A stretch of 59,828 nt of DNA, taken from IMG/VR virus record IMGVR_UViG_3300037558_000788, positions 1-59,828 of that record; one strand, given 5' to 3'. The stretch comes from a virus. The position numbers and the translations under genes are program-made. Of this stretch, positions 20,001-56,588 are shown piece after piece (within the stretch, counting starts at the first letter, position 1; the number at the start of each line of letters is the position of its first letter). Under the pieces are notes generated by a model, which saw only the letters and a program-made list of their open reading frames with translations, searched no databases and was not told the origin of the DNA.

Positions 20001-23000
20001 CGAGTTCGGAGTGCGCCATCAAGGGCGACCATAGTATTTAATGCTTCAGTCGAGTCTATAGTATCTCCCGTAATCTCAGCAAACAATGACTGGAACTCTT
20101 CAACGGCGGGTTTGTTTATTTGACTGACTCCTCTAGGACGACCAGCAAATCGTGAAACGATAAGGGCGTTTCTAAGATCAATACCTCTGGAAGATCCAGA
20201 CTCTAATCCCGATACAAAACTATTAACTGACTTACGGACCCGACCGTTACTGGAAACCATCCATGACGACATGACCCCAAAAAGATCTTTGGGGCTGAGG
20301 CTTTTGACGACTTCCGCCACCTCGTTTGAACCATCAAACACATTGTTCAAAACGAACTCATCAACAGATCGACGTAGGGTCTGGTCTTTATTGATAGCAT
20401 CGATAGCATTATCAATAGAACTAGACATTACGTTAGCGATCACTTCAGGCTCTGCAAGTGTGCCGTCTGGCTCTCTCCCAAAATTACTGAAGTAATCATC
20501 AGACCTTCTGGAATCGGTATCGAGGTCTCCGTCTTGTGGTAATGTCAATGCAGCTACGTCTCTATACTTTCGGGATACGTAGTCTTTTTGAGCCTTAAAG
20601 TTATCCGCAGCTTTAGATAAAACCGATGTAAATGTTGGAGGCGCAGTCCCACTCAGTGCGGGGTTGTTCTCAACATTCTGCTCTATGAACACTTCAAGAA
20701 TCTTGCTGCTGCTGTATTCTCCTGCCTTGTCAATAGTGACTAAGGGTAGGAGTCGGCTAGCGGCTGCATCTACTTTGAGATCCATCCGGTTTAGAAGTTT
20801 ACCAACTTTATCGGTAGGGTCTTGAAGAATGTCCTGCTTCAACTCAAACATTCTTGCGTTGAATATAAATTGCCGGCGAGCAGCGTCCATAGCTTGTTTC
20901 TGAGCATCCGAGTCGGAAGGGTCGGTGAGAGGCTCCATACGAGAATGAGCTTCGACGTTTCTCTCCTCCCCAGTCTTATCCAATTCCTTACTAAATGAGG
21001 TTATGAATCTTTTGATTTCTGTTACGCTACTGAAGTCTTCCTCCGTAGTTGCGCCGTTCTCAATGTCAAACTTCTTAACTCCAGTAGGGAGATCAACTGC
21101 TTTAAATGGGATACTACCCAGTATAGTAGTCTTTGCGTTATTGTAGTAATACTTAGGTGGGGCTTCAACAGGAGTAACTTTAGATTCAAGAGCTGCTCCG
21201 TCCGCCGTAAGCCCTACGACATCCTTCACATAATTATTCTCATCGAGAAGAATCGAAGGGTTAACATTAGGAAATCCTTTTGGAACAAAGACAGGGACTT
21301 TGGCCCGAAGCATCTCAGCCACAACAACAGGATCGTTACCGAACTGACCGATGCCATACTCATCAACAAACCCAGTAACTTTACCAGTCTCGGTCTTTCC
21401 TGTCTGTGGGTTGAAGTGTGTTCGCACGGACACACTCTCAAAGCTTGACCCTGACACAGGTTTCTTTACTGCAACCGTAGGGTAAATTGTGTATACTGAA
21501 GAAGCGACGTAATCACTAAGAGCAAGTGGGTCAACATCTTCAGGAATCGGGATACCGTGCGTGTCAGAAGTAGTTAAATTAACTGGGTAACCTAGACTCG
21601 CTGATTCAACAACCTTCTTCTGGACAAAGGGGGCTAGATCTTCTTTTACAGGAACGTCGTCAAACTCAAGTGTGTTACTAGACTTTCGCCTAGCGTAACT
21701 CTTGGAGCTTGTGAAATCACCACTTCGGTAATCCGCGTTGTGGGTCGTGACTTTCTGGCTTAGTGTCTCTAAAACATTCTCAGAGTTTGGTCCTACTTTT
21801 ACAGTAGCGAGAGTGCGTTGGAGGTCAGTGAAATCAATATCGACTCCCGCTTGAGCTTCTTTTCCTTGTTCTAATGACAGAGGGGAACCTTTGTCTGCAA
21901 CGACTCCAATGTGTTCTGTGTTAAGGACAGAAGCTTCTACGAATTGTGCTGAAAACTTTTTAGCTTTCTTATTCTTTACGTTACCAAATTGGAAGTTTAC
22001 TTCAGCTCTACTGACATCTGCGACTCTCTCTAAGAGAGTTGCACCTGCGGTAGTTTGCGATCCTGATACAGAATCTTGGGCTAAGTCTTCTGCTGATTCC
22101 AGCTTAATCTCGACTGGAGCTTTAGGTTGGGTCTTGTCTGTAAGTTCAGCTATCCTGTTATCTAGATCTGCCAGTAATGCTTGCTTGGTAGCAAGCTGTT
22201 CTTCATCTCTAACTTCAGCATTCTCTAATTCTTCTAGTGCTTGCGCCTCCGCAATCCTTTCTTGCTCCACTTCACTCAGCGCAGCTTGATCATTAAGTAT
22301 TGTTTGATCCTCTTCTGTTGTCTCTGTCGGTAAAGGAGGAGGTTGGATCTTGGTTCTTTTCCGCTCTCCAATCTGTCTTAGGACTTCATTGGCAGTTGTC
22401 GGACTCCCATTCTTTGTTAAGTTGTCTGCAACATCTTGGTAGAATTGACCTCTAAGACGTACGCTCTGGTCGGCTACGTCCATTGGGGTAACTTTGAGTT
22501 TTCTTGCAGCCGCTTGAACTGTTGGGACTCCCGCACCTAAGATACCACCAACCATAGCGGCGTGCATAGTCTGCTGCCACCTCTCAAGAATAGGTGTGTC
22601 TTTGTTAAGAGCTACATCTTCAACGAACGAGGATACAAGCTGGTCAAGACCTTCTTCTAGACCTTCGTCAACAGCGTTCTTTGCGATTTTACCGCTAGTG
22701 CGTAAGAACTGTGCGCTGTGCTTTTTAAGAGAATCTGCTAAGACAGTCTTCATTGCTCCTGACATAGCTTTATTAGTAATAGCTCCAGTGTTAGCAACAG
22801 CTTCTAAAACTTCTTTAGCTTCTTTGAAGCTCATACCTTTTAATAAGGCGTCTTCAACACCGCCCCTACCGATTGCACTAAACGCAGAGGTGATTAAACC
22901 AGTTACAGCACCCGTAGTCATAGCAAAACCTAAGGCTCTGTCGTGGATGTCTTCTTCGGGAAGGTCGGGGTTGCTTTCTTTAAGTTGGGTGTAAAGCGTC

Positions 23001-24940
23001 CCGTAACTCATGGCAGTAGAACGAGATGCTGCGGGGACAAATGTTCCTACAGCTAAACCCATTTTTCTCGCGACTACACTATTGTAAGCTTCCAAGGCTT
23101 CAATAGTCTTTTCTCTTGCCGCTGTTCCTGCTCCTGATTCTGCTACTTCTTTTATAAGATCCAGTTTAACAGCCCTGTCAGCTACCTTTTTTAAGGCTAC
23201 GTCACCAGTAGCTCTAAGCATATTACTGGTCATACCCTTAACCATACCCCTAGCGGTTAACTTAGCTCCTGACTTAGCAGTTAAGTATGCCACACCACCA
23301 GCTCCTGCGGTAGCTGTAGAAAGTAAAAAGGTAGCACCAATATCAACAATCATTGGGGCCACGGCTTCCATGACATCTTGTCCGACGCCGTACTCAGCAC
23401 CAAACATAGCGGCAACTTGCCGACGATTAGCTTGCTGCTTACTCATCTCAACAAGACCTTCCTTACCCCAATCAGAGCCAAATACTGTAGGGGCTAAATA
23501 AACTAGGCTTGATACGGCGTCCCATACAGAAGCGGCGATGCCTTTAGCTCTAGCAGCCACTTCGCTAAATACTTCTTCATTAGCGGTGAACTCTTTAAGA
23601 ATAGTGGCGTCTCCTTTACCTTCCTGACGGCCAGTCAAGAGAGCTTCGGACCACTCATCAGCGTAACTAGAATCTTCAAGAACTTTATTGTAATTACCGA
23701 ATTGATCAGCAAGAATCTCGTCCTGAGCCTCTACGAATCTTTTCTTAGTCTCTTCAGATAATTCAGGGTGAGCTGCTAAGGTCTTTGCAAAAAGCTCATC
23801 ATTAACAAAAACTGCGGGGTTGATTTGTGGCCCCAGCTTTGTGTTCCTCAAATTCTGCCCTGCTTCTGTTGCGTCTTGCCTGAGTGCGAATGAACCCCCA
23901 GCAAAACCGGAGCTTACCACTAAAGCTTCATAAGCGTCACGAACATCTGAAGGCTTATAATTAGCACCACTGTTGTTCAACTGCTCTGTGATATACTCAA
24001 CAGCCGAATCAAAACTACTATGGCTAGCCAACCACACTCTTTTTCGCCGAGCATCTACTTCATCGTCAGCAACTCCTATACCAGCTAACAGATCTGACAC
24101 ACCTTTACCTATTGACTTACTTACAGACTCTGCCGCTGAGTCATCTTCACGAGCTAGTTGACGTGCGTGTCCAGCGATATGCTCAGAAACAAAGGCATCA
24201 TCCTGAGATAACTCTTCAATACTCTTTGAGATCTCACTCAGTTTCTTGAACTGGTAAACAGACACACCAGTATCTGGAATAGGGCGAAGTTGAGATTCGA
24301 TTTCTGAAACATTCTCATACGAAACATCCCCAAGCTGTGAAGCCTTAACTGCTTTCGCAAGAGACATCTCACTGGCGGTATCACTAATCAAAAGCTTTTG
24401 ATTACCGTCTTCATCCATCACATAAGCAAAAGGAAGTTGATTTGTGTTAATGAGATCTTCTTTGGTCTCATTAAAACGCCTTTCGACAATCTCTTCAGCT
24501 TGAAACATCAAGGAAGCAACTTTCCCCTTATACTCTTCCGTTACGTCTTCTTGCTCTGAGATAACTTCCTCACCAGCCATGTAATCCAATATCACCTGAC
24601 GATCAGGATCATCACCTGAAAGACTAGAGAAGACGACGTTCATCTTACTCTGCGTATCAGCTCCTTTGGGAGCAAGAGTCTTCTCTATAGTATCCTCATC
24701 CATCCCCGAAATCGTGGACAGACCTTGACGCAGCCCCATCTGAATTTCGGCTTCAGACTTAGCGTCGTAGGAATCCCCTAAAGATCCACGCATAAAGTCC
24801 GCGTAGCTTAGAAAGCTTTGAGGATCGTCATCAGCTACATCGTTTTGAGTAGACCATTCAGAGAATGATTTAATTTGTTTCGGGGCTTCAGTCTCTTCAA
24901 AGAGACTCTTTTCAAATTCGGTAATAGGCAAATCAGGCAT
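14072..24940 (-). CDS. Giant virion-associated protein (large polyvalent-type), 3622 aa
   Basis: One uninterrupted frame of 10.9 kb, about a sixth of the window. It resembles the giant 'large polyvalent' proteins that phages package and inject with DNA. Hydrophobic stretches lie near residues 528-555 and 3300. Degenerate metallopeptidase-like motifs EEYAH (about residue 1758) and EELAH (about 2009) lack the first His of HExxH. A Glu/Gln-rich helical stretch is near 880-960. The C-terminal 600 residues (FYFRNALGNFIFG near 3073, then APFLRFKAEMFRIPFNTYK near 3260) resemble the LPD38 domain. N4 phage packages an RNA polymerase of similar size, but RNA-polymerase motifs were not found here. Likely role: ejection, host-envelope passage or early host attack. 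Confidence 0.75.
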   Translation of the reverse strand: MPDLPITEFEKSLFEETEAPKQIKSFSEWSTQNDVADDDPQSFLSYADFMRGSLGDSYDAKSEAEIQMGLRQGLSTISGMDEDTIEKTLAPKGADTQSKMNVVFSSLSGDDPDRQVILDYMAGEEVISEQEDVTEEYKGKVASLMFQAEEIVERRFNETKEDLINTNQLPFAYVMDEDGNQKLLISDTASEMSLAKAVKASQLGDVSYENVSEIESQLRPIPDTGVSVYQFKKLSEISKSIEELSQDDAFVSEHIAGHARQLAREDDSAAESVSKSIGKGVSDLLAGIGVADDEVDARRKRVWLASHSSFDSAVEYITEQLNNSGANYKPSDVRDAYEALVVSSGFAGGSFALRQDATEAGQNLRNTKLGPQINPAVFVNDELFAKTLAAHPELSEETKKRFVEAQDEILADQFGNYNKVLEDSSYADEWSEALLTGRQEGKGDATILKEFTANEEVFSEVAARAKGIAASVWDAVSSLVYLAPTVFGSDWGKEGLVEMSKQQANRRQVAAMFGAEYGVGQDVMEAVAPMIVDIGATFLLSTATAGAGGVAYLTAKSGAKLTARGMVKGMTSNMLRATGDVALKKVADRAVKLDLIKEVAESGAGTAAREKTIEALEAYNSVVARKMGLAVGTFVPAASRSTAMSYGTLYTQLKESNPDLPEEDIHDRALGFAMTTGAVTGLITSAFSAIGRGGVEDALLKGMSFKEAKEVLEAVANTGAITNKAMSGAMKTVLADSLKKHSAQFLRTSGKIAKNAVDEGLEEGLDQLVSSFVEDVALNKDTPILERWQQTMHAAMVGGILGAGVPTVQAAARKLKVTPMDVADQSVRLRGQFYQDVADNLTKNGSPTTANEVLRQIGERKRTKIQPPPLPTETTEEDQTILNDQAALSEVEQERIAEAQALEELENAEVRDEEQLATKQALLADLDNRIAELTDKTQPKAPVEIKLESAEDLAQDSVSGSQTTAGATLLERVADVSRAEVNFQFGNVKNKKAKKFSAQFVEASVLNTEHIGVVADKGSPLSLEQGKEAQAGVDIDFTDLQRTLATVKVGPNSENVLETLSQKVTTHNADYRSGDFTSSKSYARRKSSNTLEFDDVPVKEDLAPFVQKKVVESASLGYPVNLTTSDTHGIPIPEDVDPLALSDYVASSVYTIYPTVAVKKPVSGSSFESVSVRTHFNPQTGKTETGKVTGFVDEYGIGQFGNDPVVVAEMLRAKVPVFVPKGFPNVNPSILLDENNYVKDVVGLTADGAALESKVTPVEAPPKYYYNNAKTTILGSIPFKAVDLPTGVKKFDIENGATTEEDFSSVTEIKRFITSFSKELDKTGEERNVEAHSRMEPLTDPSDSDAQKQAMDAARRQFIFNARMFELKQDILQDPTDKVGKLLNRMDLKVDAAASRLLPLVTIDKAGEYSSSKILEVFIEQNVENNPALSGTAPPTFTSVLSKAADNFKAQKDYVSRKYRDVAALTLPQDGDLDTDSRRSDDYFSNFGREPDGTLAEPEVIANVMSSSIDNAIDAINKDQTLRRSVDEFVLNNVFDGSNEVAEVVKSLSPKDLFGVMSSWMVSSNGRVRKSVNSFVSGLESGSSRGIDLRNALIVSRFAGRPRGVSQINKPAVEEFQSLFAEITGDTIDSTEALNTMVALDGALRTRLSVSLLSEAQRRGIAQANDVVIADLGLESGNSDSVVSALGKIAESDKNPNHKLFAKLLLEDQAFIKNVKFVVGQGDTNIAGKYVKSIHGDHIVFINKATGNGRGLVNTLLEEYAHAVVSDTIAETGRPLNTTQKAAKKRLVTLFNKVNEAYDRQVSATGKRNPVIQVGLVNLDEFVAHFFLSPDFQSYVKTLTGPRTKVFDRTLNSMVSMFRGVNTNELNQYVKSFKDVLDLGKNTRRSTTTNAKALGSSVVNDALFSAPVEEDVQVEEEAPIEVQPEAFPEDFFDRLSPDQQSDAQSVKDFIRSLIPPSIIIKTKIEGMGGSLAAVSKDESTIFINPIVLAAKVKNNSYLAARGIIGVSINEELAHTASFNGLTQAEVDAYVESLSDTDYLDILAEYTSNTKDESFAKEFHDGLKSEDPEVVLQTKRILAEEKLRMYLQKATRGYTTEEDTRFWKSNPSLLAILKRYFAAAIRRFAANRTQLGGAGGVALNKMINEMRAIQSGFVRQPNIKSFDVNNPDANFAFYASPEDKNIDDEILRAAPEGAIEHVYLREQEKFNQLREAGVIKVSQDIRQFAGLSVLLHQPDTAFAGEVTLDGDTIVTGKGGVYYPVQFSDQGYFWASTRSKAKEMEAALNQISAKNNGKILMALTSADVTKMFSSTTMAVGSINFFRKLTDNPRFYGLNKATLNKILVEAANEAEHTTNSGAVKKLSRRLKIKDGLDQNIRNLRELLGPDDSVFPVRKDFVSRLALGVSDTLSSPSKDKIKLMSEEDQKKEETKQIQAFRIASILAGSNDYVSKTLRDRKLSRPAILQGLGDMFTEPFIKTFQQLDRKTGNIYAVLEIDGEVEAVPAPEHESYPFTIVSKEKGVTPKINVLSKSYKWDEVSHDIDTDQPVPQSKLDSYFPPSSGVSNTSLKFVEPNEAAESNSLPLQFAAPSDPNPLQSDLNLNPVVDLLEMPMLEIGAKGPENRLLNWLNKLVAGEISEPYRRLIENRSFYRKAAEDNMTKFKRKMDRLIVETYGSYDNAPMDLIAKAQGYRSDSLVSEERLGLIDKAYDEKLDEIASRRSSGVITTDEAKAEREAAKEGKNNIIGKAYDEAVKIAEEERNKALRDLAAASPDLASFIIEIRQNHIIPIQKKLVEMGLNDDVSIKVSRTGEVYLTRAYRMFTDSNYLEMVKEDASYADVREAAMEFFEGQFISDTADKIKKDADENKKPMTYQEAKQLARRELDKLNLQNPHYSYGQQTLDAFLSQYDSKAKTKGQSPSGFKMMVDNFKKRSDLPKPIRDLLGEYGAETGTDLILRTYSTVANIAAQKSFLEQLKFYAGEKEGLLISAETKFATDESRKKYAGWESVRMGQTDGANDPMTDMYVHPEFKEALQQTLNNTYIQEYAGTSERLVNGAFTLASKLSGKAMAAKTLGSVGFYFRNALGNFIFGTSQGFFRYDQMFTSMGGASFKALFGKDGEIDPVVTEMIGLGVMGDELRAGVMRDLLNGKQNPDGIQKELEGLMEKSKLNKPKKVLAAIEKKAQDLSAALDAAYKAVYYQHELGYIERAAAQNPEGKFGQMSPMQRKREAARKVLMTAQSYSQAPPLITDITKSPLGLMFAPFLRFKAEMFRIPFNTYKLGLEEFRSGDPVMRQRGILRMSSMTFVLAGLSSAVPMIAAAMTGIGDDEHEDEAMRAGIPEYYRGHTFYYFTLGGKLTSFDATYLNPFAGTVDPILRSMEKIRAGEYSEAGAAFALGYVKDQFLDTQILAGTAINAANNTNQSTGKPIWNKGVDDPIDVAYKLFEFIAGEAYAPRIGKDFVKGLETQSLSGMMGELSKGVAPARFHEVDLQRQYERYLLDHNKRFANVKSELGQLRRNVPMTEETVRQIIDDNIEARRKMNYELMRITRGYNSLGIDSAKIGKTMKDLNVGKKRMQLLTYGYMDKPPTLNIIETLLKPQNKDYGIERAKQVVNYMQTQNRYIPVRPVTEPE

Positions 24941-40253: not shown

Positions 40254-41477
40254 TTAAGCATCAAACTCAAGTTTGATTGCTCTAGATGTCCCAGCTAACC
40301 CTAAATAAACGTTGCTACCTTTAACTAAGGCTGCCGTCGAGTATCCGGTTCCAAGGCTCATTATGCCAGAACCTTCTTTAGCTGTGGGTTTCCCATCCAT
40401 GAAGTCATGCTCGTAATCTTTCCACTGAAACTCAAGCGTGGTTGGGTTAATCCGAAAACATTTCGTATCTGCCCAGAAAGCACTATACAACCAACCATCA
40501 GGCCCAAGATAACCTTGAAAATTTTTGTTCTTATTAGCAACCGAGAGGTAATCTTCGGGTAGTTTAAACTCTTGATAGGTATCGTCTTCACAGTTGATTA
40601 CGAGAAACATTTTACCTTGGCGTGGTAAACAGAATATTTTATTCACTGCCTCAACATAAGTAGCGCCTACATACTTTACCGAGAATCCAGACACTCCCGA
40701 CGTAACGGGCGGGCCATCTAAGTATTTAAAAACTCCGTCTTTATCGATCTTAGCAACACTTGTTCCCAACGCTGGGGGCATGTATACCTCTTTTTTCTTA
40801 TCAGTAGCCGCTCCCCAAATGTGGTTAAACATTGTAAACCTATTTGGTTTAGGTGGGGTAAATGAAGATACTTGTTTTGTCTTAGTATCATAGGTAAACA
40901 TCTGTAGCGTCTTGGTGTAAGACGGCATATAGATGATTCCGTTGTTGCCTTCTGCTCCTGATCTTACTTGAGGACTCATCCTGAATTTCTTTTCTAGAGA
41001 AATCAGTCCAATTTTTCTGTTTAGTTTTGCTATTGCACTTGCGTAAGCTGGTAGAAAGTAAGTGTATCCGTCGGATGCTTCGACATTACCAATGAATCCC
41101 CTGTATCCCGAAGCCTGTCTCTCGATTCGATCAGCCGCAGTATCGGTTTTAATATGCACGTCTGACTTATAGCCCAATGAATGGATTGTGCCGTCATCGC
41201 CAAGAGCCATCGTGCGCGTCTTAGTTAAGTTTCCTTTGAACTCGCCTTCTAGATACTTAAAGCGAGGCCAAGGTGTAGAGCTAAAACTAGAACTAGAACT
41301 AGAACTAGAACTAGAGCTAGAGCTAGAGCTAGAGCTAGAGCTAGAACTAGAACTAGAACTAGAACTAGAGCTAGAGCTAGAGCTAGAGCTAGAGCTAGAG
41401 CTAGAACTTTGTTCCCTAAGATTTTTTAAAATCTCTTGGAGAAGTTTAATTATTTTTTCTAACGTCTGATAGATCAT
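40254..41477 (-). CDS. Beta-propeller tail protein with poly-Ser linker
   Basis: A 407-residue protein. Residues 1-23 are a helix (MIYQTLEKIIKLLQEILKNL), then about 41 Ser as a linker, then six or more blades of a beta-propeller (repeats such as DGTIHSLGYK, NGIIYMPSYTKT, KKEVYMPPALGTSVAKI, VNKIFCLPRQGKMFLVI, DGWLYSAFW). Blades resemble those in the 49231-51432 protein (IYCFPRHGNAILKID). The layout, a helical anchor with a flexible stalk and a binding head, suggests a virion-surface receptor- or glycan-binding protein. Confidence 0.7.
   Translation of the reverse strand: MIYQTLEKIIKLLQEILKNLREQSSSSSSSSSSSSSSSSSSSSSSSSSSSSSSSSSSSSSSSSSFSSTPWPRFKYLEGEFKGNLTKTRTMALGDDGTIHSLGYKSDVHIKTDTAADRIERQASGYRGFIGNVEASDGYTYFLPAYASAIAKLNRKIGLISLEKKFRMSPQVRSGAEGNNGIIYMPSYTKTLQMFTYDTKTKQVSSFTPPKPNRFTMFNHIWGAATDKKKEVYMPPALGTSVAKIDKDGVFKYLDGPPVTSGVSGFSVKYVGATYVEAVNKIFCLPRQGKMFLVINCEDDTYQEFKLPEDYLSVANKNKNFQGYLGPDGWLYSAFWADTKCFRINPTTLEFQWKDYEHDFMDGKPTAKEGSGIMSLGTGYSTAALVKGSNVYLGLAGTSRAIKLEFDA
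41284..41406. repeat. Hexamer microsatellite encoding poly-Ser
   Basis: About 20 tandem TCTAGY units on the minus strand give alternating TCT and AGT/AGC serine codons. AGC-type units form two blocks and AGT-type units two blocks, a pattern expected from block duplication. The other strand reads (EL)n, which is not a gene. Confidence 0.9.
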
Positions 41478-44580: not shown

Positions 44581-47118
44581 TTAAAGTGTTACGTTGTTGA
44601 CTATAATGCTCCAGCCCTTGGCCTTGAGTGATGTTACTGCGGAGTTCGTCGCGGCACTGAGTGAACCAGTGGCTGTATTGTAATCAATATCAATTCCGCT
44701 GTCCCCTAGTGGATTCCCTGTGGATGTTCCATCGTCTGTCCCATGCTGATTACTTGCATCTATGCTCGTCAGGATGGCCTCGACCGAATTTGCGGTGAGC
44801 GAAGTGCAGCCGTCCCATGTGTTGTTAAAGACTCCGTTCACGATGCTTGACGGATTCCAATCAGTAAACAAAGCAGGAAAATCTTCAAGGTTTGCACAGC
44901 TTTGCCACGATGAGCTAAAATATTGACTTGCGTTTAAATTTGCTGCTCCAAACGATGTCAGGTTTTGACAGAAATACCATGCTGCAAAGAAATCGCGTCC
45001 ATTCAAAGTTGATTGAATTGCAGGAAACGAAGTCAAACCGCTTTGCCGCCATGTGTTTGCAAAGTTGATTCCTTTACTTAAATCAATGTCAGCAGGAAAA
45101 CTAGTAAGGCCACTGTCTTGCCATGCGCTCGTAAAGTTCACATTCTGTGCGCTCGTGCCGAGCTTTGCGCCCGCCGGAAATGACGTTAGGGCGGTTGTGC
45201 CTTGCCATGCGGACGAGAAGCTATTTCCGTTAGGGGCATTGATAGCATCAAAATTATTTATCGAATCAGCGTCTCTCCAAGCCCTTAAAAAATTCGTTAC
45301 ATTGGTGAAATTTAAATGCTTAAACTCAACAATGTCGTAACGGTTCCGCCAAAAGTCCTGAACAGAAGTTACTGATGGTGCGTCAGCCGCACCTCTATCA
45401 ATTAACAGTCTACGCGATTGCTCAATGTCCGCTCCTGTTGCTGAATCTGGGAGAAGAATTACCCCGTAGAGCTGTCCAATTTGTCGTGCCGAAAAACCGT
45501 AGTTACCCAAAAGGTTTAACTCAGTGACCGCATCGGAATCCACGCGATACACAAAGGTGCCTAGTGACGTTCCTACGACCTGCCAGCCAGCTTGGGTTGT
45601 CGATGGAATATCTAGGTGGTCGCTGTTGTCTGCGAAGGTAACAACATAGCCGTCAGACACTGGTTGGTCGTTAGCGGTCGATTGGGTGGCAAGCTTGTCG
45701 GTATCGCCATTATCACTGCCAACGATACGCCCGTTCCAAGCCGATGAGCCTGATGAAATCGCTCCGATTGGTGCAGACTGGGAATTGTAGAAATAGTAGC
45801 CTTGTGAGTCAATGAGACTAAAGACGTTGTTCCTATTATTAATATAATTACGAACTGAGTCAGCTTGGGCGTCGGTGATGGTCGCAGGGAAGAGCCCGAG
45901 GAATTGGAGATCAATGGCGGCTGCTCTATCAAAGCTAATACGATTACCAACAGTAAACTCATCTGACGATATTGCTAGAGTGGTGGTTGGTTCAAATTTG
46001 TTTGCGCCGTTGACTTTACTAATTAGCCCGCCGCTTTTCGCTTTTGCCTCATAAACTATGTCGCCCCTTGCGTCGTCATACATATCAACGTGCGCCCATC
46101 TATAAGCACCAGCACCGTACGAAGCAAGCCACGGTGAGCCGCCGTATTTTAAACCATAAATAAAACCAGTTGAAGCGACATCAGCCGCCCCGTTTGCATT
46201 GACACTGAAAACTCTACTGTCATTGCCACCACCAGTCCCAAGGACACTGAACGCTGCGAACATATAGCCGCCGTTGATGTTGTTTGCAAAGAGACCACGA
46301 AGACCATCGTTAACACCATCGAACCGCAAGACACTCTTCTTGATAACCGTGGCTGGGTCGTTGCCGGACTGGTTGATTGTTACCGGACCACCGACACTTG
46401 CTTGAAACTTGGTGTCACCGTGCCTAATGCTCGTTGACCCGTTGAAATCACAATCGAAGACGACCGCTGAGTTGACCGTGAGCTTGGCCTTTTGAATCGC
46501 GTAGTTGCCTTCGTGGGTAATAGTGGCCTGTTGGTTTAACTGAAGGTTGTGGGTTATTGACCCTGATTGGCTGTTTGGAGTCGCCGTGTATTCCCTAACG
46601 CCGTTAATATCAGCATAGATTTCAGTGCCATTGTATCCATACTTAACATTGAAAGATGTCCCTAAATTAACTGAATTAGAAACATAAAGTGATGTCGGGT
46701 TCCCCTTACTAAACACGCGGAATTGACTGTCTGCTCTAAAGATTAACCCAAAGCCCGAGGCCCAAACCCCACCACCCATAGGCAAAACATAAGCACCCCA
46801 TTGAGTAATCACCATGTCTAGCTCACCTTCCCAAGTCTCGTTGGAGCCAATGGTAACACTCGGACCTTCAGCGTAGTTTCCAACAACGTCAGGGATGTAA
46901 AGATAACCACCAAGGTTACCCGCTGGATTCTTGATGAGCGGCAACGCTTTAGGCTGGTTTAGGGCGGTTGTCTGCTTGGCGTCACCGCCTTTGTTTCCTC
47001 GGTTGGCGAGGTTAGCCAGAATCGGCACGGAGTCCAAGAAATCAGCGGTCGTCAGGGCTTCTGCTAGAACGTCACCAGATGTCGCGCTGGAAGTCAGTGT
47101 GGATAGATTGAGTGCCAT
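44581..47118 (-). CDS. Tail adhesin with LamG-like and BspA-like repeats
   Basis: An 845-residue protein. The first 250 residues have concanavalin-like (LamG type) segments, such as LQLNQQATITHEGNYAIQKA. Later parts have further jelly-roll type segments. Residues about 620-780 contain leucine-rich BspA-like repeats of the form 'F..AW..C..LTSFPA' (for example FTSAWQDSGLTSFPAD and WYFCQNLTSFGAAN). Such proteins bind host polysaccharide or surface proteins. Ends with a compact beta domain. Position in the tail block supports receptor binding. Confidence 0.7.
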   Translation of the reverse strand: MALNLSTLTSSATSGDVLAEALTTADFLDSVPILANLANRGNKGGDAKQTTALNQPKALPLIKNPAGNLGGYLYIPDVVGNYAEGPSVTIGSNETWEGELDMVITQWGAYVLPMGGGVWASGFGLIFRADSQFRVFSKGNPTSLYVSNSVNLGTSFNVKYGYNGTEIYADINGVREYTATPNSQSGSITHNLQLNQQATITHEGNYAIQKAKLTVNSAVVFDCDFNGSTSIRHGDTKFQASVGGPVTINQSGNDPATVIKKSVLRFDGVNDGLRGLFANNINGGYMFAAFSVLGTGGGNDSRVFSVNANGAADVASTGFIYGLKYGGSPWLASYGAGAYRWAHVDMYDDARGDIVYEAKAKSGGLISKVNGANKFEPTTTLAISSDEFTVGNRISFDRAAAIDLQFLGLFPATITDAQADSVRNYINNRNNVFSLIDSQGYYFYNSQSAPIGAISSGSSAWNGRIVGSDNGDTDKLATQSTANDQPVSDGYVVTFADNSDHLDIPSTTQAGWQVVGTSLGTFVYRVDSDAVTELNLLGNYGFSARQIGQLYGVILLPDSATGADIEQSRRLLIDRGAADAPSVTSVQDFWRNRYDIVEFKHLNFTNVTNFLRAWRDADSINNFDAINAPNGNSFSSAWQGTTALTSFPAGAKLGTSAQNVNFTSAWQDSGLTSFPADIDLSKGINFANTWRQSGLTSFPAIQSTLNGRDFFAAWYFCQNLTSFGAANLNASQYFSSSWQSCANLEDFPALFTDWNPSSIVNGVFNNTWDGCTSLTANSVEAILTSIDASNQHGTDDGTSTGNPLGDSGIDIDYNTATGSLSAATNSAVTSLKAKGWSIIVNNVTL

Positions 47119-49230: not shown

Positions 49231-51432
49231 TTAAATTATATTGAGAATAGCAGACCCTGATCCTGATGGGTCTAAAGAAAGTCGGGGCTTGGCGGCTCCT
49301 CTGGCGGCGTCTAGCTCCTCGTCCAGAAGCTTTTGACAGATCGTCCAGTGGTATTGAGCGCGTTCTAAATCAGCGTTGTCCTCCGCTAACATCCCTAAAA
49401 GGCCGTGTTTAATAGCGTTTAGGTTGCCTAGATAGATTAGATCGTCTTGAACAAGGACAGGCTCCCACGCCCGCTTGAGTAGAAGCTTAATGTTCTTAAC
49501 CTCAGCGGACGGATTACTAAACCGGAATCGACGGTAGCGGGCTACACCGTCGCCTTTGACTACGGCTAGTGTTGTGGTTGAGGCGGTGGTTGAAGAAGTG
49601 CTTGAGGGGAACCCCATCTTCATGACGTAATTTGCTCTCTGAGGAGCCATGTAGATTGAGTTGCCCTCAGTTATACCGTAAGAATACCAAGAATGAGTAG
49701 AAATGTTGGTTTTAGCACCTGATCCAGCAAGATCTGAAGAGATCTCTTTATACCCTATTTGATCTGTTTCTGGGTCTATCCAAAAGATATAAGGTATCTC
49801 ATAAGGGACTGAGTAGACAAGACCGTCTGGGCCTAATACGGATGAGAAAGATTTATGCTTGTAAACGTCTACCCCACTGTATGTTGCTTTATAAATCCGT
49901 AAAGCAGACGGGAGGGGGATCTCAACCGCTGAATCATCAGAAGTATCGATCTTAAGGATCGCGTTACCGTGCCTTGGGAAACAATAAATACATCCGGTTG
50001 ATGGGATGAATGTCCCGCCGGAATATTTATTGAAATAGGCAGCATGAAGTATAAGGTTGCTGTTAGTTATGGCAAAGACCTCTGATCCCGTAATATAAGG
50101 CTCATTGCCTGTCAGAAGATCGTTACCTAACACAACCCCGTCGTTTGATGGGTTAACGATAGCTATACGATCTGCTCCGTATGGTGTAAGGTAGATTTTA
50201 CCGTTTGCTGCTTTCGTAGCCCCAAAGAAAGAGTCATATATCCACTTTTTATCGTTAGGTAATTCCGTTTGCCAGTGGTTTGCCGAGTTACTTGTATTAT
50301 TAGGAGAACTATTACGAACGTCATACATCCCCCCAGTTCGGGAAGGGGAAAATGAAATTAGCGTTTGTGCCGATGTAGTGAAGTTAAACTTAGAGATGAA
50401 AGGATCGGAGTAATTACCTACATTCCTAGAGTAAATACTACCATATATATGGCCATTAGCTTCAGCTCCTCCTCGTATGTTCGTGTGGGTTAGATTGCCA
50501 GAAGAGGGTAGATAATTAATAGAAGGTGTATCCGTTACTTCTAAGTAATTTGTATTCCCACTGGGGTGGGCATATATTTTACCATTACTAGCAGTTAAAG
50601 AATCTACATACTTTTGGGTACTACCACCCGCTACGGTAGATTGTCCTGTCGTCGAGGTTGTATCATTTGACGGGTCGATAATTAGGACTTCATCTTCTTG
50701 ATAAGGAGTAGCGTAAAGCTTATTACCAGCTTTCGCGATACCGCGCCACTTTAAATTAGTAGCTCCAGTGTCGCTGGGGGCTACTAAATCACTACCAATC
50801 AACTCAAAAGTAAATTGTGAGCCACTACTTACGCTACACGCTACAGCCGAGACCTTAACTTCTTCGGAAACGTCAGCAAAACTAACAGACTTGATACTGA
50901 CAACTTTTTCGGTAAAAGTAGACAAAGAGGCCGTCCCATTTAGGTCAAACGTGTGGCTCTCAACATCGTCCTCACCGACCGCAAAATCAGTTTCTTCTCC
51001 GTAAACGACTGTGACCGAACCAGTAGTAGGTAAAGTCGTTTTTGGCGCGATTGGCTCGACTGTGATATAGTAGATATCAGTAGCTGCTTTATGAGTTAAA
51101 TCCTCTTTAGCCTCGTGGAAACCATCGTCCACAACACCGAAAATAGGTGCTGGGCCTGATTTTGCGTAGCCCCCGATCCGGTAGTCATGCCACTGAGAGC
51201 GGGCCTGAACCGGAGAATCCTGTAGCATAGCCCCTAAAAGGCTCTCGGAATGCTCTGGCAACGCGAAATAATCGTTCGTAGTATCAATAGACCAGTCGTA
51301 GAGTAGATCCTTCCACATCCCCATCCCATACAGGCGGGGCATGACTAGATTCAGCTTGGCTACAAGATCTTCGTCAGGCCGGACGTATTCAGACAAGGCT
51401 TTAGTTACGGCCTTTACGGTCAAAGCTGGCAT
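49231..51432 (-). CDS. Tail protein with an inserted beta-propeller
   Basis: A 733-residue protein. N-terminal part (1-210): MPALTVKAVTKALSEYVRPD, and an Ig-like domain near 140-200 (GSVTVVYGEETDFAV). C-terminal part (625-733): a YRRFRFSNPS segment, a NAIKHGLLGMLAEDNADLER helix pair, and a DEELDAARGAAKPRLSLDPS end. These two parts match the contiguous two-part pattern of a structural-protein family of N4-gp56-type phages. Between them sits a roughly 400-residue beta-propeller (repeats like NGKIYAHPSGNT, IYGSIYSRNVG, GKIYLTPYGADRI, IYCFPRHGNAI and GLVYSVPYEI). It has its own promoter. Confidence 0.72.
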   Translation of the reverse strand: MPALTVKAVTKALSEYVRPDEDLVAKLNLVMPRLYGMGMWKDLLYDWSIDTTNDYFALPEHSESLLGAMLQDSPVQARSQWHDYRIGGYAKSGPAPIFGVVDDGFHEAKEDLTHKAATDIYYITVEPIAPKTTLPTTGSVTVVYGEETDFAVGEDDVESHTFDLNGTASLSTFTEKVVSIKSVSFADVSEEVKVSAVACSVSSGSQFTFELIGSDLVAPSDTGATNLKWRGIAKAGNKLYATPYQEDEVLIIDPSNDTTSTTGQSTVAGGSTQKYVDSLTASNGKIYAHPSGNTNYLEVTDTPSINYLPSSGNLTHTNIRGGAEANGHIYGSIYSRNVGNYSDPFISKFNFTTSAQTLISFSPSRTGGMYDVRNSSPNNTSNSANHWQTELPNDKKWIYDSFFGATKAANGKIYLTPYGADRIAIVNPSNDGVVLGNDLLTGNEPYITGSEVFAITNSNLILHAAYFNKYSGGTFIPSTGCIYCFPRHGNAILKIDTSDDSAVEIPLPSALRIYKATYSGVDVYKHKSFSSVLGPDGLVYSVPYEIPYIFWIDPETDQIGYKEISSDLAGSGAKTNISTHSWYSYGITEGNSIYMAPQRANYVMKMGFPSSTSSTTASTTTLAVVKGDGVARYRRFRFSNPSAEVKNIKLLLKRAWEPVLVQDDLIYLGNLNAIKHGLLGMLAEDNADLERAQYHWTICQKLLDEELDAARGAAKPRLSLDPSGSGSAILNII

Positions 51433-51522: not shown

Positions 51523-52095
51523 TTAGGGGTAAATGATTTTCTTCCCGAGGCTAATCGGATTATTCCATTCGTTATCACTACTCTCTCGGTCGCCTACCTG
51601 CCAAAAGTTATAGCCGGAGACGAAGATGCTCTGGATATACCCTTGTCCGGCTGTCCAGTGGATTCGATGGTCAACTGACAACTGCACCATGTTGACAGGC
51701 GACACTATATCCAAGTGAAGGTGGAGGAGGATAGCCGCTGACTCCGGTGTTACCACGTATGCGTGTGTGTCTCGGCTTTCACTGAAGAACATGACCTGAT
51801 CACCTTTCGTTGCATCTACGAGAGGCTGAAGTCCCGAAGTCGTTACCTGTTCCTCACACTGGACATCGTCCTCAAAAATTAGAACATTCTGCTGAAGTCT
51901 TACTGCTTCGAGCCAGCACTTGGCGTGGGAAGCGCGGCAACACATATCGCCAAGGCATTCATAATAGTCAGAGACTACAGCATTATCCGCCTTATCAACA
52001 CAGAGATACTCGTAATCGAGATGCTTGCCCACGCCTTCCTCAAACTGTTTCTTGCGGTCGAGTCGAGACTCTCGGTGTATGCAAATAATCCTCAT
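51523..52095 (-). CDS. GT25-like glycosyltransferase (short)
   Basis: A 190-residue protein. MRIICIHRESRLDRKKQFEE (N-terminal nucleotide-sugar fold), CCRASHAKCWLEAVRLQQ, and VLIFEDDVQCEE with the E-D-D motif fit the GT25/LPS-glycosyltransferase family. It is shorter than its neighbour, and SRDTHAYVVTPESAAILL is shared by both in pattern. The donor and acceptor are unknown; decoration of virion proteins is one option. Confidence 0.65.
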   Translation of the reverse strand: MRIICIHRESRLDRKKQFEEGVGKHLDYEYLCVDKADNAVVSDYYECLGDMCCRASHAKCWLEAVRLQQNVLIFEDDVQCEEQVTTSGLQPLVDATKGDQVMFFSESRDTHAYVVTPESAAILLHLHLDIVSPVNMVQLSVDHRIHWTAGQGYIQSIFVSGYNFWQVGDRESSDNEWNNPISLGKKIIYP

Positions 52096-52147: not shown

Positions 52148-52819
52148 CTACCAAAAATTTATTTCGTGTGTCTTCCCGTTGATGTTAGATGCACCAGCTC
52201 GCTGGCCTACGACCCACTCTTTTGGGCAATAAACGGGCCAATCCTTGCGTCGGTGGGCTAATTCAAGCTGGTGGTCGATGTGCTTGTTCGTGTTACGGTA
52301 GTCCGTCGCATATGATATATGGCGGTAAAACGACGTGAAAGTAGACTGATTAACGGCGTAGGCGTGCGTCCTGTTTACAGAATTACCAACAATCACATTA
52401 GGGGACTCGGTTTTAGTCGGATCACGGCGATGTTGACCGCCTAAATAAATCTGCCCCCAATCCTCCGGCACGTCTTCCATTAACTCATTGATCTTCTCTA
52501 AAGAGTCTTCCTTAAATATCACGTCGTCTTCTAATACCAATACGTTGTTCAAAGACATATTGTAGCGGTCATCTCTAGTATGGATGACATCCTCCAGAAT
52601 CCTTTGGTGTGAACGCAAACACCCCCACGCTCCTCTGCCAGAACCCCAGTCAGCCGGACAGGTTGTCCAGTCGCCTATAATAGCAGGATAATAGTGGACC
52701 TTGTCGTTGTCCGCCATTCTAGTCTCTTCAAGATGCTTCTTCGTCTCTTCAAGACGATCCGGTCTATGGGCGCAGTTGATCACGTAAACGCGGTCAAACC
52801 AGTCAGTTAGGTTCTTCAT
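52148..52819 (-). CDS. GT25-like glycosyltransferase
   Basis: A 223-residue protein. VYVINCAHRPDRLEETKKHL, GAWGCLRSHQRILEDVIHTR, VLVLEDDVIFKEDSLEKI (D-x-D type LEDD motif) and RTHAYAVNQSTFTSFYRHI are hallmarks of GT25 (LPS/procollagen-type galactosyltransferases). It overlaps the Ser-rich protein gene (ATGA). It may add sugar to Ser residues of the neighbouring Ser-rich tail protein. Confidence 0.75.
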   Translation of the reverse strand: MKNLTDWFDRVYVINCAHRPDRLEETKKHLEETRMADNDKVHYYPAIIGDWTTCPADWGSGRGAWGCLRSHQRILEDVIHTRDDRYNMSLNNVLVLEDDVIFKEDSLEKINELMEDVPEDWGQIYLGGQHRRDPTKTESPNVIVGNSVNRTHAYAVNQSTFTSFYRHISYATDYRNTNKHIDHQLELAHRRKDWPVYCPKEWVVGQRAGASNINGKTHEINFW

Positions 52820-53310
52820 GGGTTTCCGTCTCCTTCAGATACTGAGGATGAACTTTTTGATGATCCTGAAGAGCTAGAGCTAGAGTCTGAAGAGCTAGAG
52901 GCTGAAGAACTAGAACTAGAGGCTGAAGAGCTAGAGGCTGAAGAACTAGAACTAGAGGCTGATGCAGAGCTAGAACTAGAGGATGATGCAGAGCTAGAAC
53001 TAGCAGGACTACAAGGGGAATCATGAACGGTAACCTCTATGGTTACAGTAGATGAAGTAGACGAAGACGAAGAAGAATTACTGCTTGTATAGGTTCCCGA
53101 AGCATCATTTTCACTGGAACCTCCCTCCCATTGCTGGAAAAACACATCGAGTATTATCCATTCCGAACTACCGTTCCAATAAAGGGTATAAGACGCAGCA
53201 GCAGTATAGTATTGAACGCTGTCGTCCCAATACAAGTCAATGGGGTCTCCACTCACCCCATCGTCAGTGACGACAAGCCGCGCCCTACACTTTCCGTTTG
53301 GTGCCGCCAT
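52816..53310 (-). CDS. Ser-rich tail-region protein
   Basis: A 164-residue protein. Residues 1-80 form a compact beta domain (RARLVVTDDGVSGDPIDLYW and TLYWNGSSEWIILDVFFQQW). Residues 88-164 are almost only Ser with Ala spacers, built from TCT, AGT/AGC, TCA and GCC codons in hexamer repeats. It ends EGDGNP. The beta domain is likely virion-bound and the Ser arm an extended, possibly glycosylated, linker. It is coupled to the adjacent GT25 gene. Confidence 0.65.
   Translation of the reverse strand: MAAPNGKCRARLVVTDDGVSGDPIDLYWDDSVQYYTAAASYTLYWNGSSEWIILDVFFQQWEGGSSENDASGTYTSSNSSSSSSTSSTVTIEVTVHDSPCSPASSSSASSSSSSSASASSSSSSASSSSASSSSSSASSSSDSSSSSSGSSKSSSSVSEGDGNP
52863..53006. repeat. TCTAGY/TCAGCC hexamer repeats encoding Ser/Ala
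   Basis: Imperfect hexamer units on the minus strand that give alternating serine codons with Ala interruptions. It is the same TCTAGY building block as at 41284-41406, 11 kb away. Confidence 0.75.
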
Positions 53311-54363
53311 TTATTCTCTTGGGTAAGCTGAGTTAATAAAGTTCTCGTTAGCTATGAACTGCTCTTTACTACGCTCAGGCATATCAAACCCTCTAAAGCC
53401 TTTACGGGTTCCGGTCAGTTTCAAAGTTACTTTAGAAGGCCGTAAAAAAGATAAAGGCCACGCCGAAAGAATCACGTTGTTCTTCTCAACTACCGCACCA
53501 ACTGATCCAGCCTTGTCGCCGGATATTCCTGTAACAGCCATCGAGTCCGGTTCACACACTGCCAAGAACCTGTCATCGATTCGGGCTACTGTATTGGCTC
53601 CTTCTAACGGCACATCCCTCATCACGAACTCAAAGAGAACCTCATTGGATTCCATCGTGAACAACGCACCGTATCCTTTGTCGTGCCAGTCCATAGGCAC
53701 AATAGCGGTAGACTTATCTGATCCTGAAGTAGAAGTAGAAGAAGAGGAAGTAGAAGAATCTTCCTGAACACCAAAAGCTGTTAACCAGTAAACGTCAGTG
53801 GATATGTTTTGGTCTAGGTTTTCTATCTCATAACCAACGTCTTCCGAAGCTCCTACCCCTTTAGGGGCTACATAACCAATCTTAACGTAGAACTTACCGC
53901 CGTTGTCATTAGGTAAATTTTGTTGTGGGGGAGGATCGCCATTCCCATCATCCCCTCTAATATCACATAAAGTTACTCCGCCCGACGAATTAGTTTCCCA
54001 ATACAGGTAAACATTCCCACGAAAGTCTAGTGTGTAGAACTTGTATCGGTTCTCAGAAGCAGCAAGGTTAGACGGAATGACGATTTGCGGATTAGATACA
54101 CCAGTCTGAGATACTAACCCATCCGTATTAAACACCATCCGATTGATCTGATGGACCAGAACACCGAAGTAGATGTGGATCTTATCGTCAGGAGCAGGCC
54201 GCAAGGCAAACGGATACGGCTTGTAAGCTGGATCTTCAGGACTTACACTCCCAGTCGTTGTGTCGTAGTTGTCATCAAAATCACCCGTAAAGTCACGCGG
54301 ACCTTCAGGCGCACCCTCTAACGGTATCGGTAGAGGAATATCAGAACTGTCTTCGGGCTTCAT
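53311..54363 (-). CDS. Tail-region structural protein
   Basis: A 350-residue protein; start MKPEDSSDIPLPIPLEGAPE at 54363 (ATGA overlap with the upstream stop). N-terminal acidic, Pro-rich part; then beta-rich domains (YKFYTLDFRGNVYLYWETNS, NGGKFYVKIGYVAP). A Ser/Thr stretch near 220 is similar to those of the neighbouring Ser-rich proteins. The C-terminal part is beta-rich with VTLKLTGTRKGFRGFDMPER. Likely tail or fibre-anchor protein; no family recognised. Confidence 0.6.
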   Translation of the reverse strand: MKPEDSSDIPLPIPLEGAPEGPRDFTGDFDDNYDTTTGSVSPEDPAYKPYPFALRPAPDDKIHIYFGVLVHQINRMVFNTDGLVSQTGVSNPQIVIPSNLAASENRYKFYTLDFRGNVYLYWETNSSGGVTLCDIRGDDGNGDPPPQQNLPNDNGGKFYVKIGYVAPKGVGASEDVGYEIENLDQNISTDVYWLTAFGVQEDSSTSSSSTSTSGSDKSTAIVPMDWHDKGYGALFTMESNEVLFEFVMRDVPLEGANTVARIDDRFLAVCEPDSMAVTGISGDKAGSVGAVVEKNNVILSAWPLSFLRPSKVTLKLTGTRKGFRGFDMPERSKEQFIANENFINSAYPRE

Positions 54364-56588
54364 GATGGAGGATAAACAGTTACTGTCTCCATGAGCCAAC
54401 CGCCCCTAAATGGTTTAACTTCTGAAGATATGATGTGCGGCTCCCATGTCGTTACGTTGGTTGCGTTCTTGTTATAGACCGCACCTGTGTTATTCCAAGT
54501 CTCGTCACTATTAATACTTACAGTAAAGTTAACAGCCTCATGCAACGTGGGCGGGATCGACAAGGTAAATAATGGGTTCTGTATAGAGATCGGCTCTGGT
54601 GCTGGCTTCTCACCTGCCTCTAAACCAACTGGTTGAGTCGTAGACCAACTAATGTCAACTACTGCTTTACACGGCCCTCTGAAAGAGCCTTTTGAGTAGA
54701 GAACTCTAGGATAAGTTCTAGCACCACCGGACCTCAAGTTCCATACATCAAACTGAACGTCTTGTAAAATGGGTGGGAAAGCGTAGTTAACTACGGTCTC
54801 GTAACTAAGCCTCGCGCACTCTCCTACAGGGTATGCTGCTTCCTCGGGCCTGTAACTAGTATAACCAAAACTCAAATCAATAGGAGAAAGCTGGTAGCTA
54901 TCGCTGAAGTAATCCGCGATGTTTGTATCGGCTGCTGCTACTGCGGCATACTCAACGTCAACATCTTTTATTAGTTCGTTAGCGTCTCTAAAATGTGAGG
55001 GAGCGCCGAGAAATTCAACGGAAGAAGACGTTTGAGAAGTACTTCCTTTAAACGTCCCTAATAAAACACATTCACCACCTAAAACCATCACTACAGGGCT
55101 TCCTGAGTCTAGATTAGTACTTTCTTTCCAACTAGAATAAGTTGAGCTGGGAGGAGATATTTCTAGTGTTGCGGAAGTTGTTGCCGCGTAGACCTCGATC
55201 TCTGGATTTTCGTAATTAAAATCTTGAAATTTAACTTCAGATAACTGAGCTATATTTGCCTTTTTCTCTCTATCCGTATTGAAAATTAAAACTTCTGGAG
55301 AACCGTATGTCCATGTCGTAGGAGTAGGGTTGCTGTTAAAGTTTGATGGGTTAAAGAATTGATAGCTATCTTTTGGAAGAACTTTGATAGGCTCGACCGA
55401 CTTCGGTAGATCCCTATTAAGTAACGCGACCCCCATATCATTTCCTGCGTGCAGTTTAACACGAATTACAGTGCGTTCGTAAACTATATTGTTTCGGTCT
55501 ACAAAAAAGACGACATCTTTTGCTGATAGGGGGGATTGCTTAGAAAAATAGACATGTCTTGGAGTGACTAACACTCCGCCGCGTTTATCGCTCTCAGTAT
55601 CGTTATAGACTATAGGGTTTCCTGAAGCCCCTGTCCCACTCTGATACCGGCGTAACCTAGCCACAAAGCCAGTAATCCCAGTAAGGTCGTGCGCCCAACA
55701 ACTTGAGTTTCTCACTGCTACGTAACCTACAAGATTGCTCCCTGACATATTGGCAGTGATCGAAGTAAAGAAAGTTCGGTCTGATGACGCACTATGCCCG
55801 CTAATTGCACTAGCTATAGAAGCACTCGCTTCATCTTGTAGTTTTAACCGTCCGTCTTCGCCCGAAGTTGGACACTTAACAACCTCCTGCTCAGTAACGG
55901 CAAACCAGTTATCAGACAACTGCTGAACAGTGCGGATCGTGCCGGAGTGCATGCCCCAGTAGGCGTTGTCAGAATTTAAGTCCTCAATCTCGTCTGATGC
56001 TCCGGTTGGAGTCTCTCCTCGATAATAAAGGGTCTGCTTAGTCTCGTTCGTCGTCTTGAAGAACTCATCAAAGTCTAAACGGGACAACGGAACCTTCTTC
56101 ACGTAGACCCGTTGCTCAACAACATACAGGCCGTTTAGAATCTTGTCGTTTAGAGGAATCTGCTTACGCTCCGCCAGAACGTGTGTGCCACTGAACTTGC
56201 CTGTTGGAGTATCAGGCATCGTCGCCCCCATTGCGGGAACGGTAGAACTAAACTCACTACGGCGGATTACGTAATCACGCGAAACAGCGTCAAACTTAGT
56301 GCCGCCAATATCAGCCTCACTATAGGACCAGTTGTCGTTATCTTGCTCTAGCTGGTCAGCCGCGTAGTAGTAACGGTAGTAACGGTTTTGTCTTTGATCG
56401 TCCGCCGCTTCGACGTGAACCAGTCGGTGGTTTGGCCACTTTTTGTAGTCGGGGTGGCTAGACCCGTATTTAGGAACATCAGACCCAACCCTCTCCGCAT
56501 CAACGGTTTCAAAGAAAAGGATGTCGTTAACATTCGGTGTAGGAAATGTAACGACTGACTGTCGTTGCGGGGAGGGATTAAGGGCCAT
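54360..56588 (-). CDS. Tail protein with a trypsin-like domain (His apparently lost)
   Basis: A 742-residue protein. Residues about 330-520 show S1 peptidase landmarks: GGVLVTPRHVYF (strand and loop at 337-348), NDMGVALLNRDLP with Asp384 and LDSGSPVVMVLGGECVLLGT with Ser495. At the catalytic His place (P-R-H-V-x-x-A-A-H pattern) there is Gln351, so the domain may be inactive or a different His is used. The rest is beta-rich (KVPLSRLDFDEFFK, GSPEVLIFNTDREK, FTVSINSDETWNNTG). A virion protein with structural or cleavage role. Confidence 0.6.
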   Translation of the reverse strand: MALNPSPQRQSVVTFPTPNVNDILFFETVDAERVGSDVPKYGSSHPDYKKWPNHRLVHVEAADDQRQNRYYRYYYAADQLEQDNDNWSYSEADIGGTKFDAVSRDYVIRRSEFSSTVPAMGATMPDTPTGKFSGTHVLAERKQIPLNDKILNGLYVVEQRVYVKKVPLSRLDFDEFFKTTNETKQTLYYRGETPTGASDEIEDLNSDNAYWGMHSGTIRTVQQLSDNWFAVTEQEVVKCPTSGEDGRLKLQDEASASIASAISGHSASSDRTFFTSITANMSGSNLVGYVAVRNSSCWAHDLTGITGFVARLRRYQSGTGASGNPIVYNDTESDKRGGVLVTPRHVYFSKQSPLSAKDVVFFVDRNNIVYERTVIRVKLHAGNDMGVALLNRDLPKSVEPIKVLPKDSYQFFNPSNFNSNPTPTTWTYGSPEVLIFNTDREKKANIAQLSEVKFQDFNYENPEIEVYAATTSATLEISPPSSTYSSWKESTNLDSGSPVVMVLGGECVLLGTFKGSTSQTSSSVEFLGAPSHFRDANELIKDVDVEYAAVAAADTNIADYFSDSYQLSPIDLSFGYTSYRPEEAAYPVGECARLSYETVVNYAFPPILQDVQFDVWNLRSGGARTYPRVLYSKGSFRGPCKAVVDISWSTTQPVGLEAGEKPAPEPISIQNPLFTLSIPPTLHEAVNFTVSINSDETWNNTGAVYNKNATNVTTWEPHIISSEVKPFRGGWLMETVTVYPPS

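Follow-up and report, generated by a model that had tools for sequence, protein, structure and literature searches.

How does a virion protein of about 320 residues, conserved within a group of uncultured phages, come to measure 733 residues in one of them, and what might the additional part do? The question is raised by an intact open reading frame on the minus strand (positions 49231-51432) of a viral DNA of 59,828 nucleotides (IMG/VR record IMGVR_UViG_3300037558_000788, positions 1 to 59,828), hereafter called the window. A preliminary description of this DNA had proposed that the gene encodes a conserved tail component into which a beta-propeller has been inserted. We describe below the family to which the protein belongs, the predicted fold and the relatives of the insert, the probable identity of the carrier, and finally the functions that such a fusion could have.

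An enlarged member of a conserved virion-protein family

The 733-residue protein matches its family at both ends. It is made up of the two extremities of a conserved protein of about 320 residues from the virion module, with an insert of about 405 residues between them. The N-terminal part (residues 1-207; 50812-51432, minus strand) carries two helices and the first strands of a beta domain up to its long fifth strand. The C-terminal part (residues 613-733; 49231-49596, minus strand) brings the last strands of this domain, two helices and a C-terminal tail. Relatives L001 and L002 have 320-residue proteins devoid of the middle part, and to these residues 1-104 and 628-716 show 93-100% identity; the two ends belong to one contiguous family, as had been supposed. 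At the DNA level, the flank encoding residues 1-105 is 86-91% identical to insert-free L001-L005, L007, L009, L011, and L023. For most of the close insert-free genes (L001-L005, L009), identity over the C-terminal part is 92-94%, and for L023 it is 77%.

Whether the propeller is shared by all members was checked on the 81 distinct full-length proteins of the family that a full-length search of IMG/VR recovered. It is present in 1 of the 81, 80 having 309-352 residues and the window protein alone reaching 733, and the fusion is known from one genome only. The 733-residue protein has no match in Pfam or PHROGs. PDB sequences, searched with phmmer and with profiles, yielded nothing useful, with one weak CBM match (4a42, E 0.007). 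No relatives of the family were found among the cultured-phage records searched.

In the alignment, the two junctions fall near residues 207/208 and 612/613, which correspond to window positions 50811/50812 and 49596/49597, close to residues 210 and 620 as first proposed. Because both ends of the insert are rich in serine and threonine, it can be delimited only to within several residues. These short linkers, SSGSQ on the left and SSTSSTTAST on the right, lie at or across the junctions.

The insert also differs from its surroundings in composition, with a GC content of 42.2% vs. 48.5-50.3% in the flanks and a GC3 of 37% vs. 48-49%. When the family tree is computed with the insert left out, the window protein groups with the insert-free proteins of L023, L002, and L001 (support 100/100). 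Since it is nested among insert-free proteins, the insert was gained. Insertion by a mobile element was considered and left aside: there is no target duplication and no terminal inverted repeat, and the borders show only chance-like 12-mers, without noteworthy direct or inverted repeats.

The predicted propeller and its relatives

The insert (residues 208-612; 49597-50811, minus strand) carries seven repeats of the type [ILV]Y..[PI], at residues 239, 286, 329, 413, 482, 539, and 593, spaced by 43-84 residues and absent from the flanks. In 20,000 shuffles, the mean number of such motifs was 0.16 and the maximum 3; seven were never obtained. In an AlphaFold2 model built on a 37-sequence alignment, strands run through the whole of residues 208-607, at moderate confidence (mean pLDDT 71, pTM 0.59). 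Several loops (366-400, 443-467) are modelled with low confidence, and the details of the blades are therefore not to be relied upon. When compared with the PDB by Foldseek, the insert matches seven-bladed propellers, the best being virginiamycin B lyase (E 2.9e-14, target TM about 0.8), and propellers stand at the top of 684 matches below 1e-3. The insert is predicted to be a seven-bladed beta-propeller joined by short Ser/Thr-rich linkers. The some 400 residues of propeller repeats announced by the preliminary description are borne out by these results, fold prediction included.

A scan with the insert sequence alone found no relative, and a profile scan was needed. The closest relatives, with 66-71% amino acid identity, are stand-alone genes with Ser-rich flanks in three related phages, L006 (7669-8988), L021/L022 (L022: 4179-5834), and L023 (1991-3469). 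They are located 2.8-3.8 kb upstream of the insert-free adaptor gene, in a slot bounded by homologues of window 53311-54399 and 52148-52819, and their linkers resemble those of the insert. In the window, this slot is occupied by a Ser-rich ORF of 164 residues with a similar C-terminus, SSVSEGDGNP (52816-53310, minus strand), which is 95-99% identical over 100 residues to Ser-rich genes of L003, L004, and L009. On this ground, no relocation of the propeller from the window's own slot gene is claimed. With only about 70% identity between the insert and its nearest stand-alone relatives, the direct donor is unsampled; none was found among the sequences searched.

It has to be weighed here whether the assembly has falsely joined a stand-alone propeller gene to the adaptor gene. 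The fusion comes from a single contig of a metagenomic assembly and the two genes are separate in relatives. However, two false in-frame junctions would be needed, leaving the propeller complete and the adaptor preserved at both ends; moreover, no long repeat is seen at the junctions and another gene fills the slot expected for the stand-alone propeller. We consider such a chimera highly improbable.

The window encodes a second, distant propeller protein (40254-41477, minus strand), with an N-terminal helix-like stretch, a run of 41 serines and the propeller. Being only about 23% identical to the insert, it was discarded as its direct source. This propeller type is common in the phage group, and propeller proteins related to it occur widely in viral contigs, though no relatives appeared among the cultured-phage records searched.

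Several other genes of the window deserve mention. Two genes resembling glycosyltransferase family 25 lie in the virion module beside the adaptor gene (51523-52095 and 52148-52819, minus strand); in relatives, other genes are found in the slot of the latter. The 742-residue virion-module protein at 54360-56588 (minus strand) has an insert of about 280-320 residues with respect to homologues of 405-443 residues in L014, L025, L026, L030, L032, and L034. This insert carries the trypsin-like triad motifs TPRH, NDMGVALL, and DSGSP, with slight variants in L003, L006, L009, and L022, and has no Pfam match. Judged by these motifs, it is a second, parallel domain insertion in the same virion module, that of a putative trypsin-like domain. 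On the minus strand are also found a giant ORF of 3622 residues (14072-24940), with no Pfam match and only a chance-level PHROG match, and an 845-residue protein (44581-47118) with C-terminal repeats of the SAWxxSGLTSFP type, whose L006 homologue has 1302 residues.

The carrier and its insertion site

The fold of the carrier was modelled with AlphaFold2 on the insert-free protein of L004 (mean pLDDT 79). The model contains helices 6-16 and 23-37, a beta region (44-241), helices 258-272 and 276-298, and a tail. The part previously called Ig-like is predicted as a beta domain of eight strands, plus short N-terminal strands. This arrangement corresponds to the plan of head-to-tail adaptors, in which N- and C-terminal helices form a bundle, a beta domain lies between them, and an embracing C-terminal segment follows. 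Foldseek relates the carrier to adaptor chains of phage SU10 with a probability of 0.94-0.98, but with an E-value of about 0.02 and a target TM of 0.40-0.49, and the best PDB matches by E-value are unrelated sandwiches. Matches to BFVD models named “Head to tail adaptor” have probabilities of 1.00 (E 4.1e-4) and 0.95. With hhalign, the carrier profile showed no sequence-profile match to T7 gp11 or SU10 gp11 (probability below 1%). Such a relation is not required at this distance, because T7 gp11 and SU10 gp11 were assigned by structure.

Since the modelled fold of the carrier points to adaptors but its sequence does not, the name “adaptor” is probable rather than proven: the modelled protein is probably a podoviral head-to-tail adaptor of the T7/SU10 gp11 type. 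The earlier assignment to a tail component is supported and can be narrowed to this probable identity. The missing sequence match to known adaptors and the modest TM-scores would also suit another ring or neck protein, for instance a head-completion or fibre-anchoring protein, in which case the insertion would be real but the propeller displayed elsewhere. We judge this unlikely, given that the helix-helix-beta-helix-helix-tail order is that of adaptors and that the high-probability structural matches bearing functional names are adaptors. A nozzle protein of the T7 gp12 type, in which a propeller core is accompanied by platform and nozzle-tip domains, was rejected as the carrier, 80 of the 81 full-length family members having no propeller.

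Within the probable adaptor, the insert falls in loop 199-204 (L004 model), at the tip of a long hairpin formed by strands 176-198 and 205-217. In the alignment, this hairpin-loop stretch has 5-22 residues in relatives vs. 423 in the window protein, between the same anchors. The surrounding domain is hypervariable: the proteins of L001, L002, and L008 are 98-100% identical at their ends and only 30-52% identical in the beta domain. Window residues 105-200 (50833-51120, minus strand) lie in this domain, and the insert occupies its most length-variable loop. Such hypervariability suggests that the adaptor beta domain is exposed and under diversifying selection or exchange.

Possible roles of propellers at the phage neck

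Head-to-tail adaptors are critical for virion assembly and are usually small. No description of an adaptor with an inserted propeller turned up in the literature covered, which was partial. Among the BFVD models are adaptor-like ones of 519-581 residues, so that enlarged adaptors beyond the window protein may exist and may not be unique to it.

The following scenario builds on what the data above show, namely the insert with its borders, its gain, the propeller prediction and the stand-alone relatives; the adaptor identity, the ring, the exposure and the binding activity are inferred, and the whole has in our view about an even chance of being correct. The phage would be short-tailed, and gene 49231-51432 would encode its head-to-tail adaptor. 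Into this gene, a propeller module complete with its seven blades and closely akin to the stand-alone virion-region genes of sister phages would have recombined in frame, Ser-rich linkers joining it to the hairpin tip of the exposed, hypervariable beta domain. Provided the protein is made whole, it follows that each adaptor copy carries a propeller, presumably directed outward on a flexible tether. The subunits would then form a collar of propellers just below the capsid, twelve of them should the ring share the 12-fold symmetry of T7 and SU10, and this collar could bind host-surface glycans or a receptor, supplementing the tail fibres. Several published observations are consistent with such an arrangement. 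The adaptor of T7 forms a 12-fold ring (PMC6702177), that of SU10 has radially protruding fibre dock loops (PMC9509320), and tail tubular protein A of a Vibrio phage was reported to bind a host receptor (PMC7241545). Binding of a receptor or glycans is the most likely task of the propeller, while enzymatic or structural roles are possible.

An enzymatic role would make the propeller a putative lyase or hydrolase of polysaccharides that clears host glycans at the neck, and not a passive binder. The best fold match of the insert is a propeller enzyme, virginiamycin B lyase, and in Klebsiella phages KP32 and KP34 tail tubular protein A is reported to act as a saccharide hydrolase (PMC5741709). 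Nevertheless, identity to virginiamycin B lyase is only 11-13%, Foldseek matches propellers of unrelated function to each other, and neither Pfam nor PHROG gives a match, which leaves this role rather improbable. We are equally doubtful of a structural propeller that would dock the tail fibres or brace the neck, as the stand-alone propeller may do in relatives. It is true that the adaptor fibre dock holds the fibres in T7 and SU10, that the propellers of nozzle proteins have structural roles (PMC6702177), and that the insert sits in the putative dock domain. However, many relatives have neither the insert nor a close propeller type in the slot, and the propeller is therefore dispensable as a brace; the flexible linkers, for their part, suggest display.

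If outward display is retained as the preferred reading, the apparent tolerance of a 400-residue domain per adaptor subunit would point to a natural permissive site for display at the neck. The fusion would also bear on the question of whether adaptors take part in host binding. As the same module occurs free and fused in sister genomes, the route from a free protein to a fused domain becomes testable. A broader and more tentative proposal, which we hold to be possible but somewhat less likely than the display scenario, is that about a dozen tethered propellers constitute a second, neck-mounted apparatus for receptor or glycan binding, derived from a free-standing virion propeller moved into the adaptor, and that propeller, protease, and hypervariable beta modules are being shuffled between neighboring virion genes in these phages.

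The fusion can finally be set against known systems. With T7 gp11 and SU10 gp11 (tail tubular protein A), the carrier, as modelled, shares the helix pair, the beta or fibre-dock domain, the following helices and the C-terminal tail; it differs by a larger beta domain, by the 405-residue propeller and by having no sequence match to them. The nozzle proteins T7 gp12 and SU10 gp17 are likewise podoviral tail proteins with a seven-bladed propeller (PMC6702177, PMC9509320). In these proteins, however, the propeller makes up the nozzle core and, in T7, belongs to the DNA gate, whereas the insert is optional and sits in another protein, absent from that protein's relatives. Virginiamycin B lyase (PDB 2z2o) has the overall fold predicted for the insert, at the low sequence identity given above. 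Cylindrospermopsis phage Cr-LKS4 encodes a protein of 1130 residues (WHL30579.1), with a counterpart in virus RM-2018a, whose repeats are related to the insert at about 24-25% identity; there, the propeller forms the C-terminal part of a different and larger cyanophage protein, unlike the carrier described here. In the sister phages, the same propeller, again with Ser-rich flanks, is encoded by separate genes, unfused to the adaptor.
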